Shown piece by piece: positions 3,959 through 42,555 of a stretch of DNA of 59,349 nt (positions within the stretch are counted from its first letter, which is position 1; each line of letters begins with the position of its first letter). This stretch comes from Bacteroidaceae bacterium (GTDB lineage: Bacteria > Bacteroidota > Bacteroidia > Bacteroidales > Bacteroidaceae), in the NCBI GenBank assembly GCA_024401275.1, contig JAKSLJ010000021.1, positions 1 through 59,349 on the forward strand, in the 5' to 3' direction. Under the pieces are notes generated by a model that was given only the letters and a program-made list of their open reading frames with translations, searched no databases and was not told where the DNA came from. Made by a program: the position numbers and the translations under genes.

Positions 3959-4040
3959 CAAGATGTAGGGCGAAGTTTACTGAGCCGTATGCGAGAATAA
4001 AACCTTAATCGCGGCTCAGTAAACTTCGCCCTACATCTTG
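3959..4040. repeat. Family A palindromic repeat, copy 1
   Basis: A perfect 29-bp inverted repeat (3959-3987 with 4012-4040) surrounds a 24-nt loop. The arm contains GTAGGGCGAAGTTTAC and TGAGCCG. The loop (GCGAGAATAAAACC then TTAATCG) resembles the loop of the copy at 13669, so the copies are homologous throughout and not merely similar in the stems. It may also terminate the flotillin transcript. Confidence 0.9.
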
Positions 4041-13668: not shown

Positions 13669-13741
13669 TGTAGGGCGAGGATTTCCGAGCCGTTTAGCGG
13701 AAATAATACCGGAATCGCGGCTCGGAAATCCTCGCCCTACA
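13669..13741. repeat. Family A palindromic repeat, copy 2
   Basis: A perfect 24-bp inverted repeat (13669-13692 with 13718-13741) with arms containing GTAGGGCGAGGATTTCC and GAGCCG. It lies between trpE and trpG and so just upstream of the trpG-RAYT pair. The GTAG at the foot fits known REP sequences. Confidence 0.92.
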
Positions 13742-13795: not shown

Positions 13796-14416
13796 ATGGC
13801 AAAAACAAATCTCGTAATCATCGACAACTACGACTCATTCACCTACAACCTGAGTCACCTTATAAAAGAACTTGGCGCAGATGTTACCGTCTATCGCAAC
13901 GACCAGTTCCAACTCTCGCAGCTTGAAGAGTTCGACAAGATAGTTCTCTCTCCAGGCCCTGGCATCCCTTCCGAGGCAGGTCTTCTCCTCGATGTCATTA
14001 AGGCATACGCAGGCAAGAAACCTATGCTCGGCGTTTGTCTCGGTCATCAGGCTATCGGCGAAGCCTTCGGCGGCAAACTCACAAACCTCTCTACCGTCTT
14101 CCATGGCGTGCAGACACCATGCTATAAAACAGCCGCTGATTCTCCTATATTCAAAGGCCTTCCAACGCAAGAGGCTATTGAAAAACTCCCTCCCATTAGG
14201 GGGAGGGTCGGGGTGGGGCTTATCGGCCGCTACCACTCTTGGGTGGTTGACACCGACGGTTTCCCTGAATGCCTTGAGGTTACCGCTCTCTCCGAAGAAG
14301 GACAGGTCATGGCACTCCAGCACAAGACGCTGCCTATCTACGGCATCCAGTTCCATCCCGAGAGCGTCCTCACCCCAGACGGCAAGCAGATGCTAAAGAA
14401 CTTTCTGGAAGTATGA
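13796..14416 (+). CDS. trpG: Anthranilate synthase component II (glutamine amidotransferase)
   Basis: The 206-residue class I amidotransferase supplies ammonia to TrpE. The oxyanion and nucleophile segment GVCLGHQAIGE has Cys81, and QFHPES near the C-terminus has the catalytic His and Glu. Residues about 130-142 (KLPPIRGRVGVGL) lie between PIFKGLP and GRYHSW, where TrpG proteins are normally shorter, and are encoded by a family B half-element. The stop TGA overlaps the RAYT start codon. Confidence 0.95.
   Translation: MAKTNLVIIDNYDSFTYNLSHLIKELGADVTVYRNDQFQLSQLEEFDKIVLSPGPGIPSEAGLLLDVIKAYAGKKPMLGVCLGHQAIGEAFGGKLTNLSTVFHGVQTPCYKTAADSPIFKGLPTQEAIEKLPPIRGRVGVGLIGRYHSWVVDTDGFPECLEVTALSEEGQVMALQHKTLPIYGIQFHPESVLTPDGKQMLKNFLEV
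14186..14220 (+). repeat. Family B half-element inside trpG
   Basis: CTCCCTCCC ATT AGGGGGAGGG forms the core stem, followed by TCGGGGTGGGG. It is read in frame as LPPIRGRVGVG and leaves the amidotransferase open. Confidence 0.7.
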
Positions 14417-15768
14417 TAATATGTCGTGAGTGGCATGGTTGCACTTTGACACTGACAGAGGACGGTTGGCGTTGCGAGGTGAAGCATTCCATGCATCGCC
14501 GTTGCAAGGGTTGGGATTATTGCAAACCTTGGATATACATGGTGACAATTAATACACAGCACCATGACCAACCTCCAATGCCTCTCATTGATGGCTACAG
14601 ACTTCCAGAATGGTTGTTGAAAGCATATGGCAAGACTGGGCATCCGCATCTTTTCGGGGAATTGGCGCAGAATCTTGATGCGGATGGGAAGGCTACAATA
14701 GCTTTGAACAATTTTGGCAAGGCGGTGTATGATAGTATTGAGGGAATAAGTAAGTTTTATCCACAAATCAGTATCGGTGAGCGAGTGGTAATGCCTAATC
14801 ATGTGCACTTTATTATTCGCATAAAGGAGAGATTGCCGGAAAAGAAACCTCTGGGCTTTGTCTTGAACAAGTGGAAATCGGGAGTAAACAAGCTTTTCAA
14901 AGAGATCGTGCTTGGGCTCCCAAAGGAGACGCACATGGAAGTTGGGTCATCTGAGCCTAAAGCTCTGAGTACAAGGCTACAGGCAGGACGCGAGAAGCAT
15001 GGTGGCCACGGCAGCAAGCATCCCGATGCCGGCCTTGTCTTTGAGACAGGCTTTCACGACCGCATCCTTTTCCGCGAGGGTCAACTGCAAACTATGATAA
15101 GCTATGTGCGAAGCAATCCGCAACGATTATGGGATGTAGTCCATAACCGTCAGTATTTCAACAAGATCGCTGACTGGAGAATAACAATGCCCTTACTTTC
15201 AGGTACAGGTACTAAAGGCGCTGGCAATTGGTGGGAATATTATCCTGGAGGAATGCAATCTTTGACGGAAGAAGGAGGGGCAAGAGGACTGCTTGATAAA
15301 GTTCACATAGGTGGTACAGATGTTGACATAAACAATGCAGTTCCTTCTACACCTACCATAACCATGACCTTCAATGCCATCGGCAATAGAGCGCTTATGG
15401 AAGTGCCGGAAAGAATGCAGATACAGTGTTCACGAAAGATGACGGAAGACGCCCTCAACAACCTTATTGAAGAGGTCTTGGAAGCTTGTTCTCATGGTGT
15501 GGTAATCGTGTCACCATGTATTTCTGAAGGTGAGAGGCGTGTAGCAAGGGCAGTGATGGACGCTGGTTATCAGCTTATCGTGATCTTCCCTAATGGCATT
15601 CCTGCCGATATGGCAGAATACAAACCATACGGTACTTACTTTGATGCTTGTGCACGAGGACAGTTGCTGATTCTGTCGCCGTGGGATTTCCATGCAGGTA
15701 AACGGAGCCTTGCCCGTTGGCAATGCCTATTACTCAATGATATTGCAGCACAACTAAGCATAATGTAG
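14413..15768 (+). CDS. REP-associated tyrosine transposase (RAYT) fused to a DprA/SLOG-like Rossmann domain
   Basis: The protein has 451 residues. Residues 30-245 match RAYT (Y1 transposase, HUH superfamily): GWDYCKPWIYMVTI (33-46), VMPNHVHFII (126-135, the HUH pair His130/His132), FHDRI (214-218) and SYVRSNP (230-236, candidate nucleophile Tyr231). RAYTs nick single-stranded REP hairpins and are thought to spread them. After a linker, residues about 315-445 look like the DprA-type Rossmann fold: FNAIGNRALM, QIQCSRKMT and GVVIVSPCISEGERRVARAVMDAG resemble GNPELL, GSR and SGLARGID segments. DprA binds single-stranded DNA, so the fusion makes functional sense. The ATG overlaps the trpG stop (ATGA), implying translational coupling. 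The DprA link is by eye. Confidence 0.83.
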   Translation: MIICREWHGCTLTLTEDGWRCEVKHSMHRRCKGWDYCKPWIYMVTINTQHHDQPPMPLIDGYRLPEWLLKAYGKTGHPHLFGELAQNLDADGKATIALNNFGKAVYDSIEGISKFYPQISIGERVVMPNHVHFIIRIKERLPEKKPLGFVLNKWKSGVNKLFKEIVLGLPKETHMEVGSSEPKALSTRLQAGREKHGGHGSKHPDAGLVFETGFHDRILFREGQLQTMISYVRSNPQRLWDVVHNRQYFNKIADWRITMPLLSGTGTKGAGNWWEYYPGGMQSLTEEGGARGLLDKVHIGGTDVDINNAVPSTPTITMTFNAIGNRALMEVPERMQIQCSRKMTEDALNNLIEEVLEACSHGVVIVSPCISEGERRVARAVMDAGYQLIVIFPNGIPADMAEYKPYGTYFDACARGQLLILSPWDFHAGKRSLARWQCLLLNDIAAQLSIM

Positions 15769-15800
15769 AATCCACGAGATTCTCTCTCAGATAACAAATG

Positions 15801-15840
15801 ACGACCGGCATGAGTCATAAAACTGACTCATGCCGGTCGT
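15801..15840 (+). terminator. Hairpin after the RAYT gene
   Basis: A perfect 17-bp stem (ACGACCGGCATGAGTCA at 15801-15817 with 15824-15840) and a 6-nt loop lie 32 bases after the RAYT stop. It probably ends the trp transcript, though there is no T-run; it could also be a repeat served by the RAYT. Confidence 0.65.
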
Positions 15841-15903
15841 CTATTCAAAGAGTAATGTTTACATTTAAGGAGTCTTATATATTTCTTTGACTCTTACAGG
15901 AGA

Positions 15904-17901
15904 TTACTTCTTTACGACAACCATTTTTGTTTCGCCGTTCTTCTTTACGATATAGATGCCTGTCTGGTTAGGGATGTCCACCTTCACGCCATTGAGAGTG
16001 TAGAACTCCACATCGCCGTATTTGCTGTTTATATCAGATAGCGTTACTGCTGTAGCTTTGTCTATAAGCAGGGCGAGAGCGTCATCATCACTTGAATAGC
16101 TGTCAAGGTTCAGGAGATAAACAACATCGTCAATATCTGTGCGACCATCAAGGTTCAAGTCGCCTTCGGCATACTTCTTTATTGTTTCCTTTAGAGAGGT
16201 ATTCTCAGACTCAAGAGCAGAATTCTGTGCTTCAAGAGATTTGATTTGCTCTTTAAGTGCATCCACATCTTCTGTGCCAGAGTTGCTGCCGAATTGTATA
16301 GTCTTTGTCGTAGCATCAGAAGTTTCGTAGCCTTCTGCCTCAGCATAGACGGTTATGTTATATGTAGTAGAGAGTGGGATGTCGCCTGAGGTTGACTTTG
16401 TGAGCGAAGTCTTAATGTCATTATCAGTAATGGTATATGAATAAGTGGCATTCGGTGTTGTGCTGCTGAACTTCAGATGACCGTCAGTATAAACAACGCT
16501 AGGAGCTTCGCATTGTTTCTTTGTAATCTCAGGAAATTCGTTGCCGTCAAGGTCAACAATCTTGCCAAAATCTTTCCATGGGGCTGTAGTTTCGTAGTAT
16601 TCTGCTCTTGACTTAGGCACATAGAGAGTGCAATTGCTAACATTGACATTATCAAACACTCCTGAATAAAGATAGATATCCTTCTCGCCTGTAATGTAGA
16701 ATTCCTTCAACGGTGCGCCTTTGAATGCATTAGCCCTGATATACTCTACATTCTTGCCTAATACCACTTTGTTTAAGCGATTAATCTTAGGACTGCTGAC
16801 AAGAGGGTAAGCAATAGTCACATCATCTCCATAGTATATCTCCTCTACATACGAGCTGAAATAGTAAGAAACATTAGTGTTCCAATATATCGTCTTTATT
16901 TTAGAGCAATCAGTGAACGCAGAGTTTCCAATGCTCGTGACGGAATTCGGGATGGTGACAGAGGTAAGGCCGGAACAATAATAGAACGCATAGTCTCCAA
17001 TGCTCGTGACGGAATTCGGGATGGTAACAGAGGTAAGACTGGAACACCAATAGAACGCACGTTCTCCAATGCTCGTTACGGAATTCGGGATGGTGACAGA
17101 GGTAAGGCTTGTACACTGATCGAACGCCCTTTCTCTAATGTTAGTGACGGAATTTGGGATGGTGACAGATGTAAGGCCGAAACACTTAGAGAACGCATAC
17201 CTACCAATGCTCGTGACGGAATTCGGGATGGTGATGGAGGTAAGGCCGGAACAACCAGAGAACGCATAGTCTCCAATGCTCGTGACGGAATTCGGGATGG
17301 CATATGCCACCTTCTTCGTTGCTATACATAATAATAGTTCTGTTTTTTTCTTGTTGAAAAGTACGTTGTCAATAGCACAGTAATTAGGATTATCTTTATT
17401 TACCTCAAATGAGGTAAGACCTGAACAACCTGAGAACGCACCATCTCCAATGCTCGTGACGGAATTCGGGATGGTGATGGAGGTAAGGCCGGTACAACCA
17501 GAGAACGCCTCGGTTCCAATGTACGTGACGGAATTCGGGATGGTGATGGAGATAAGGCCGTAACAATATTCGAACGCTCTGAAACCAATACTCGTGACGG
17601 AATTCGGGATGGTGATAGAGATAAGGCCGGAACAACCAGAGAACGCCTTGTCTCCAATGATCGTGACACCATCTTCTATTTGTACCTTGATGATCTTTTC
17701 TCTGTTACTGTACCAAGGAATATTACTATATGAACTATAGTGTTTCATATTCCCACTACCGGATATTACCAAAGTACCGTCATCGTTAAGAACGAAGGTG
17801 ACATTATCGCCTTTATCGCCACAGGAGCCAGACTGGATTACAGTGGCATTGGCGGTAATAATCAAAGCTGCAAATGCCAATAAAGTTAGAAATCTTTTCA
17901 T
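15904..17901 (-). CDS. BspA-like leucine-rich-repeat surface protein
   Basis: The protein has 665 residues. After a signal peptide (about 1-19) come repeated LRR_5 units of about 23 residues of the form LTSVTIPNSVTSIGDYAF, interrupted by a non-repeat strand segment (NKDNPNYCAIDNVLFN). Then follow a chitobiase-C-like domain (about 445-530), a heptad coiled coil (about 545-580), a dockerin-like calcium motif (DLNLDGRTDIDDV) and a C-terminal tail (IYIVKKNGETKMVVVKK) like those of secreted Bacteroidota proteins. BspA-type proteins bind host matrix or other bacteria. The near-identical DNA repeats make unit number prone to change by recombination. Confidence 0.85.
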   Translation of the reverse strand: MKRFLTLLAFAALIITANATVIQSGSCGDKGDNVTFVLNDDGTLVISGSGNMKHYSSYSNIPWYSNREKIIKVQIEDGVTIIGDKAFSGCSGLISITIPNSVTSIGFRAFEYCYGLISITIPNSVTYIGTEAFSGCTGLTSITIPNSVTSIGDGAFSGCSGLTSFEVNKDNPNYCAIDNVLFNKKKTELLLCIATKKVAYAIPNSVTSIGDYAFSGCSGLTSITIPNSVTSIGRYAFSKCFGLTSVTIPNSVTNIRERAFDQCTSLTSVTIPNSVTSIGERAFYWCSSLTSVTIPNSVTSIGDYAFYYCSGLTSVTIPNSVTSIGNSAFTDCSKIKTIYWNTNVSYYFSSYVEEIYYGDDVTIAYPLVSSPKINRLNKVVLGKNVEYIRANAFKGAPLKEFYITGEKDIYLYSGVFDNVNVSNCTLYVPKSRAEYYETTAPWKDFGKIVDLDGNEFPEITKKQCEAPSVVYTDGHLKFSSTTPNATYSYTITDNDIKTSLTKSTSGDIPLSTTYNITVYAEAEGYETSDATTKTIQFGSNSGTEDVDALKEQIKSLEAQNSALESENTSLKETIKKYAEGDLNLDGRTDIDDVVYLLNLDSYSSDDDALALLIDKATAVTLSDINSKYGDVEFYTLNGVKVDIPNQTGIYIVKKNGETKMVVVKK

Positions 17902-41633: not shown

Positions 41634-41703
41634 GTAGGGCGAGGATTTCCGAGCCGCATACAACATGCTATCTCGAAAAACGGCTCAGAAATCTTCGCCC
41701 TAC
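41634..41703. repeat. Family A palindromic repeat, copy 3
   Basis: Arms GTAGGGCGAGGATTTCC plus GAGCCG (41634-41656) and the near complement at 41681-41703, with two mismatches. It fills the gap between the alpha-E and transglutaminase genes. Confidence 0.88.
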
Positions 41704-42498: not shown

Positions 42499-42555
42499 TG
42501 TAGGGCGAGGATTTCCGAGCCGAAAAAGTAACGGCTCACAAATGTTCGCCCTACA
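42499..42555. repeat. Family A palindromic repeat, copy 4
   Basis: Arms at 42499-42522 and 42532-42555 (GTAGGGCGAGGATTTCC; three mismatches in the second arm) around a 9-nt loop. It starts four bases after the transglutaminase stop. Confidence 0.88.

Follow-up and report, generated by a model that had tools for sequence, protein, structure and literature searches.

The gene and its neighbours

The window, a stretch of 59,349 nucleotides covering positions 1 to 59,349 of contig JAKSLJ010000021.1 from a Bacteroidaceae bacterium (assembly GCA_024401275.1), contains directly after trpG a gene for a fusion of a RAYT/TnpA_Y1-type nuclease with a DprA-like domain (Table 1). The protein, carried by a Prevotella-like bacterium, looks like a genuine and apparently undescribed type of DNA-moving enzyme. 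Among the open-licence PubMed Central (PMC) papers searched, none combined the whole words RAYT and DprA, which does not prove absence from print. The open reading frame lies where a first-pass annotation from sequence alone had placed it, and the three motifs named there, GWDY...IYMVTI (residues 33-47), PNHVHF and SYVRSNP, are present. The fusion start codon (14413-14415) and the trpG stop codon (14414-14416) share letters in an ATGA overlap. This start is likely real, because the next in-frame ATG, codon 27, falls within a conserved SMxRR stretch, ahead of which most relatives begin by about 19 to 30 codons.

Table 1 Features of the fusion gene and its surroundings (window positions).
Feature	Position	Strand	Basis or remark
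Fusion gene, 451 aa	14413..15768	+	Open reading frame and translation without internal stop; paralogues; genus relatives
HUH-tyrosine nuclease part, residues ~33-245	14509..15147	+	
HUH motif PNHVHF, residues 128-133, with His130 and His132	14794..14811	+	Conserved in relatives
SYVRSNP, residues 230-236, with presumed nucleophile Tyr231	15100..15120	+	Conserved in relatives
Variable HUH-to-Tyr linker, residues ~165-210	14905..15042	+	Site of in-frame hairpin in relatives
DprA/ShosA-like Rossmann domain, residues ~320-451, with Arg341, Lys404 and Asn442	15370..15765	+	
trpG	13796..14416	+	GATase Pfam match, 5.3e-52; stop overlaps fusion start
Perfect 18-bp hairpin, 32 nt past the fusion stop, between convergent genes	15800..15841	+	Single genomic copy

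A RAYT-type nuclease half

Residues 119-238 of the window protein match the NCBIfam family REP_Tyr_transpos (NF047646; REP, repetitive extragenic palindrome) with an E value of 3.4e-7 and 30.3 bits, against a curated cut-off of 80, and the same family matches all 22 members of alignment set A3 at E ≤1 (best, 3.9e-11). In the predicted structure, the N-terminal half adopts a Y1 transposase fold, with a predicted local distance difference test score below 50 at linker residues 173-206. A profile of the whole alignment searched against PDB sequences returned TnpA as its best match, at E values (0.044-0.046) that are marginal by themselves. Conservation was assessed on 102 sequences, reduced to 97 distinct full-length relatives by duplicate removal; 73 of the 102 had been preselected by an HUH-like motif. 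The HUH histidine pair is present in all 97. The position of Tyr231 holds tyrosine in 96 and aspartate in one.

The HUH and tyrosine motifs and the Y1 fold are shared with RAYT/TnpA_REP proteins such as that of E. coli (PDB 4er8), and the fusion enzyme would presumably nick DNA through its tyrosine. By contrast with the IS608 and ISDra2 TnpA transposases, it carries an extra domain, the distance from HUH to tyrosine is longer (98 residues in the window copy) and no insertion-sequence ends were identified.

A DprA-like half

What sets the protein apart from RAYT/TnpA_REP proteins is its C-terminal domain, for which a DprA/ShosA-type Rossmann fold was found in the predicted structure (residues ~320-451). 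Taken by itself, the window protein matches no Pfam family, even at an E value of 10, so the assignment to DprA rests on structure and on relatives. Searched against PDB sequences, a profile of the C-terminal part returned DprA as its best match (E 0.048-0.052, marginal by itself); aligned to DprA directly with hhalign it scored weakly. The profile does match standalone DprA-like proteins (hhalign P 1.2e-12), which in turn hit the Pfam DprA family PF02481 with values of 3.7e-6 and 5.2e-6, though without reaching its gathering score. Arg341 is kept in 96 of the 97 relatives, and Lys404 and Asn442 in all 97.

The modelled Rossmann fold is the one found in the DprA proteins of H. pylori (4ljk) and S. 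pneumoniae (3uqz). The fusions differ from these in that none of the 29 scanned at E 1 matches PF02481, and in that no match covers the accessory domains or the final stretch of the H. pylori chain. In H. pylori DprA, Arg52, Lys137 and Arg143 are reported to matter for binding single-stranded DNA (PMC4489622). The Arg341 column of a HMMER alignment coincides with an H. pylori arginine taken as Arg52 on the assumption of a chain-numbering offset of 4, and Lys404 was paired with Lys137 by eye only. On these grounds the DprA-like part may bind single-stranded DNA.

ShosA is grouped with the PsyrA and RqlI proteins, and the C-terminal domain could, as in these, bind a partner and restrain or target the nuclease rather than handle DNA. 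We consider this role rather unlikely, given that Arg341 and Lys404, the residues matched to DNA-contacting positions of DprA, are nearly invariant and that PADLOC returned no match for the window protein. Unlike ShosA, PsyrA and RqlI, the fusion has its DprA-fold domain joined to a nuclease. PHROGs yielded no match for the window protein or for one standalone DprA-like protein. A standalone DprA/PsyrA-like protein (L137:1480-1953) directly follows a gene that by eye resembles a restriction-methylation gene and precedes a possible nuclease.

Distribution of the fusion

The source genome encodes five divergent copies of the fusion, the other four lying on other contigs and being 22-36% identical to the window protein. 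Single-protein and C-terminal profile searches alike found matches in 33 of 60 genomes of the genus (the source genome included), and frames of at least 288 codons hold 81 of the 92 C-terminal matches among those listed. A search of genome contigs matched at least 595 stretches, of which 570 were confirmed and the best 80 kept. Both halves lie in one frame in 74 of these best 80 loci; the other six look truncated, broken or recombined. The combination of a RAYT core and a DprA-like Rossmann domain in one protein, proposed by the first-pass annotation and supported by the NF047646 match and the predicted fold, is therefore conserved across the genus and is no frameshift product of a single strain. 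In a chimera on L091, an N-terminal half that by eye resembles an ORF6N-type protein replaces the HUH part and is followed by the tyrosine and DprA-like parts.

The family seems to be centred on one genus. Most of the kept contigs carry Prevotella or Prevotellaceae in their titles, others being labelled as Bacteroidaceae, Muribaculaceae or unclassified Bacteroidales bins. Across a phylum sample of 395 genomes, with at most ten candidates scored per genome so that further copies may have escaped, six matched the C-terminal profile: the source genome itself, two standalone proteins, a 675-aa protein, a DprA and a match on L141 that by eye seemed spurious. Among viral contigs, a first scan gave no pattern match and a second gave 18 stretches, none of them confirmed; plasmids, queried with the protein of one relative, gave a single weak partial match (22.5% identity).

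Hairpins in and around the fusion genes of relatives

The best clue to function is the lineage-specific hairpins inside and beside the genes of relatives, which the first-pass annotation did not register. The linker between HUH and tyrosine contains a stem of at least 8 bp in 20 of 29 fusion genes, against 1.5 expected from codon shuffles, whereas such stems occur in the C-terminal part of three and in the N-terminal part of none. Because the genes are related, the 20 linker hairpins do not represent 20 independent events. Seven of the 20, of three types, recur in the flanks within 300 bp, compared with 5% for other linker 8-mers. In several lineages, CCGTTCYGT-like letters were seen by eye ahead of the stem, whatever its sequence. 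Some linkers (L021 and L028) have grown into repeated PQPTEK-like peptides with more hairpins.

In genome G045, the fusion gene has the hairpin CAAGCGAT-nnn-ATCGCTTG on its upstream side, in its linker and on its downstream side. Three further copies within 200 kb differ by paired changes, and two of these three are no more than about 7 kb away from the gene. Loose matches lacking the pairing numbered one more in the G045 stretch and two in the control genome G016, and the hairpin of the G016 gene itself has a single copy, its own, in 200 kb.

A second dispersed type is a palindrome, TGTTGC-xyT-nnn-Ay'x'-GCAACA, that recurs in the flanks of fused loci. Of the 80 loci, 52 have it inside the fusion frame, 23 have it at most 300 bp downstream and 11 have it equally close upstream, while 22 lack it; only four copies occur elsewhere across these loci (608 kb in all). 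The same codon phase is shared by 52 of the 60 in-frame occurrences. The exact palindrome is present in 20 of the 60 genus genomes, and 17 of these carry the fusion, compared with 16 of the 40 palindrome-free genomes (Fisher p = 0.001). Fusion-carrying genomes contain 93 of the 99 sites and the others six; a reversed control gave three. Both free stem positions are paired in 70 of the 75 sites listed (of 99), which comprise nine stem types and lie partly in or beside fusion genes.

Every one of the 20 dispersed sites that were fetched (L219-L238) carries GT at positions -3 and -2, 13 of them on the left alone, two on the right alone and five on both sides, where the background is 0.048 per position. 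Among the 15 single-footed sites, the foot is thus on the left in contig orientation in 13. Foot-and-hairpin repeats beside the genes and dispersed are a further likeness between the relatives and RAYT/TnpA_REP systems; the foot of the TGTTGC type differs, being GT with a variable remainder (GTAT, GTTT, GTCT) rather than GTAG.

Six of the 20 dispersed sites seemingly lie in open frames and, read wider, five fall in long ones. A Pfam scan confirmed four of the host enzymes, GH97, GH43, MutA and aminopeptidase P; the fifth, a MutA in another genome, was assigned by likeness. For GH97 and MutA, the two that were compared with solved PDB homologues, these palindrome copies fit insertions because the residues they encode fall on alignment gaps. 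The fusion enzyme itself may well have made such hairpin insertions. In G059 and G033 the palindrome occupies the same place of methylmalonyl-CoA mutase (L270 and L271), through either inheritance or a preferred site.

A hairpin in the enzyme's own reading frame has a precedent in TnpA_Y1 subclass 2.4, described in the sections consulted of Quentin et al. 2018 as having a REP in its own gene, no extension of the core domain and a median length of 194 aa (PMC6006769). The fusions likewise have Bacteroidetes hosts, and 20 of the 29 genes, the window copy not among them, have an in-frame hairpin between HUH and tyrosine; they differ in extending past the core with the DprA-like domain. The same source mentions that a few unexpectedly long proteins were discarded as gene fusions or annotation errors (PMC6006769).

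The window copy and the repeats of its own genome

Although intact, the window copy may be an orphan. No hairpin with a stem of at least 8 bp and a loop of up to 12 nt occurs in its linker, and a BLAST search of its gene region, to which short or degenerate repeats would be invisible, found no dispersed repeat in the source genome. A scan for the CGTYCNGT foot of relatives followed by a hairpin, run without a positive control, found none in the window or in the stretches of the other copies (L041-L044). The downstream hairpin, tried as a REP, matched only itself in the genome and is perhaps a terminator. The copy could therefore be a relic, still in frame after loss of the repeat family that was its substrate, and a point in favour is that the best C-terminal matches listed among 59 further genomes of the genus do not exceed 51% identity. 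We regard this as a serious possibility that falls short of an even chance: the frame is complete, the HUH, tyrosine, arginine, lysine and asparagine residues are all retained, and the blind spot of BLAST for short repeats bears on this reading too.

The source genome is itself rich in a different repeat. GTAG-tagged pairs lie at window positions 3959-4040, 13669-13741, 41634-41703 and 42499-42555, with covarying inner stems (GGA/TCC, AGT/ACT, AGA/TCT and ACA/TGT) around a GA.GA mismatch. Their proximity to the window copy (one lies 670 bp upstream) and to the C1 copies might suggest that the fusion drives them. We consider this very improbable and have set the pairs aside as a fusion substrate: each of the other 59 genus genomes, 32 of them with the fusion, has only 0-4 matches (reversed control, 0-3), as against 232 half-sites in the source genome. 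On contig 45, GTAG repeats border both sides of a single-domain RAYT of 196 aa (L053:4939-5529, minus strand), which is probably their cognate enzyme.

The ATGA overlap had also led the first-pass annotation to propose translational coupling to trpG, which would tie synthesis of the nuclease to tryptophan biosynthesis. The overlap is real; the meaningful co-production drawn from it found no backing, and we give it next to no credence. Since a RAYT-like frame follows trpG in none of the 19 relatives (of 20) with a readable downstream frame, the arrangement is a local event, and the overlap a local accident; the other fusion copies of the genome lie on other contigs, and trpG itself has only one match. 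By eye, trpD comes directly after trpG in 11 of the 20 relatives, unlike in the window (14417-15904). Some 15 extra residues, inserted in frame and containing a G-rich repeat (14186-14218), set the window trpG apart from the other 20 trpG genes; with up to three mismatches allowed, the repeat matches 28 times in the genome and its reversed pattern three times.

Proposed mechanism and implications

Our results suggest, with a probability of about 0.68, that the window gene encodes a TnpA_Y1/RAYT-type HUH-tyrosine nuclease of single-stranded DNA joined to a DprA/ShosA-fold domain, and that its relatives act as REP enzymes. Under this model, the HUH-tyrosine part would recognise a GTNT-like foot and a short, lineage-specific hairpin in single-stranded DNA, and the tyrosine would nick beside them, allowing the hairpin to spread. 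The DprA-like part would bind the adjoining single strand and hold, protect or hand over the cut product. In many lineages the enzyme's own reading frame bears a hairpin, as described for TnpA_REP subclass 2.4.

How RAYTs spread REPs is unsettled, and RAYT-driven mobility is presented as a hypothesis in the sections consulted of papers from 2013 and 2018 (PMC3733652, PMC6006769). A more specific version, to which we assign a low probability, is a recombination-coupled hairpin transposase, in which the nuclease half would cut at its own hairpin and the DprA-like half would shield the freed single strand or deliver it to RecA, with REPs moving by templated recombination instead of direct strand transfer. 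If true, templated recombination would help to explain the clean in-frame copies in housekeeping genes and in the enzyme's own gene.

A natural fusion of a RAYT to a DprA fold suggests that the missing step is how the cut single strand is handled, and it offers a two-domain protein in which this can be tested. In addition, in-frame hairpins in the family's own genes, in GH97 and in methylmalonyl-CoA mutase point to a route by which short peptides may be inserted into bacterial proteins.
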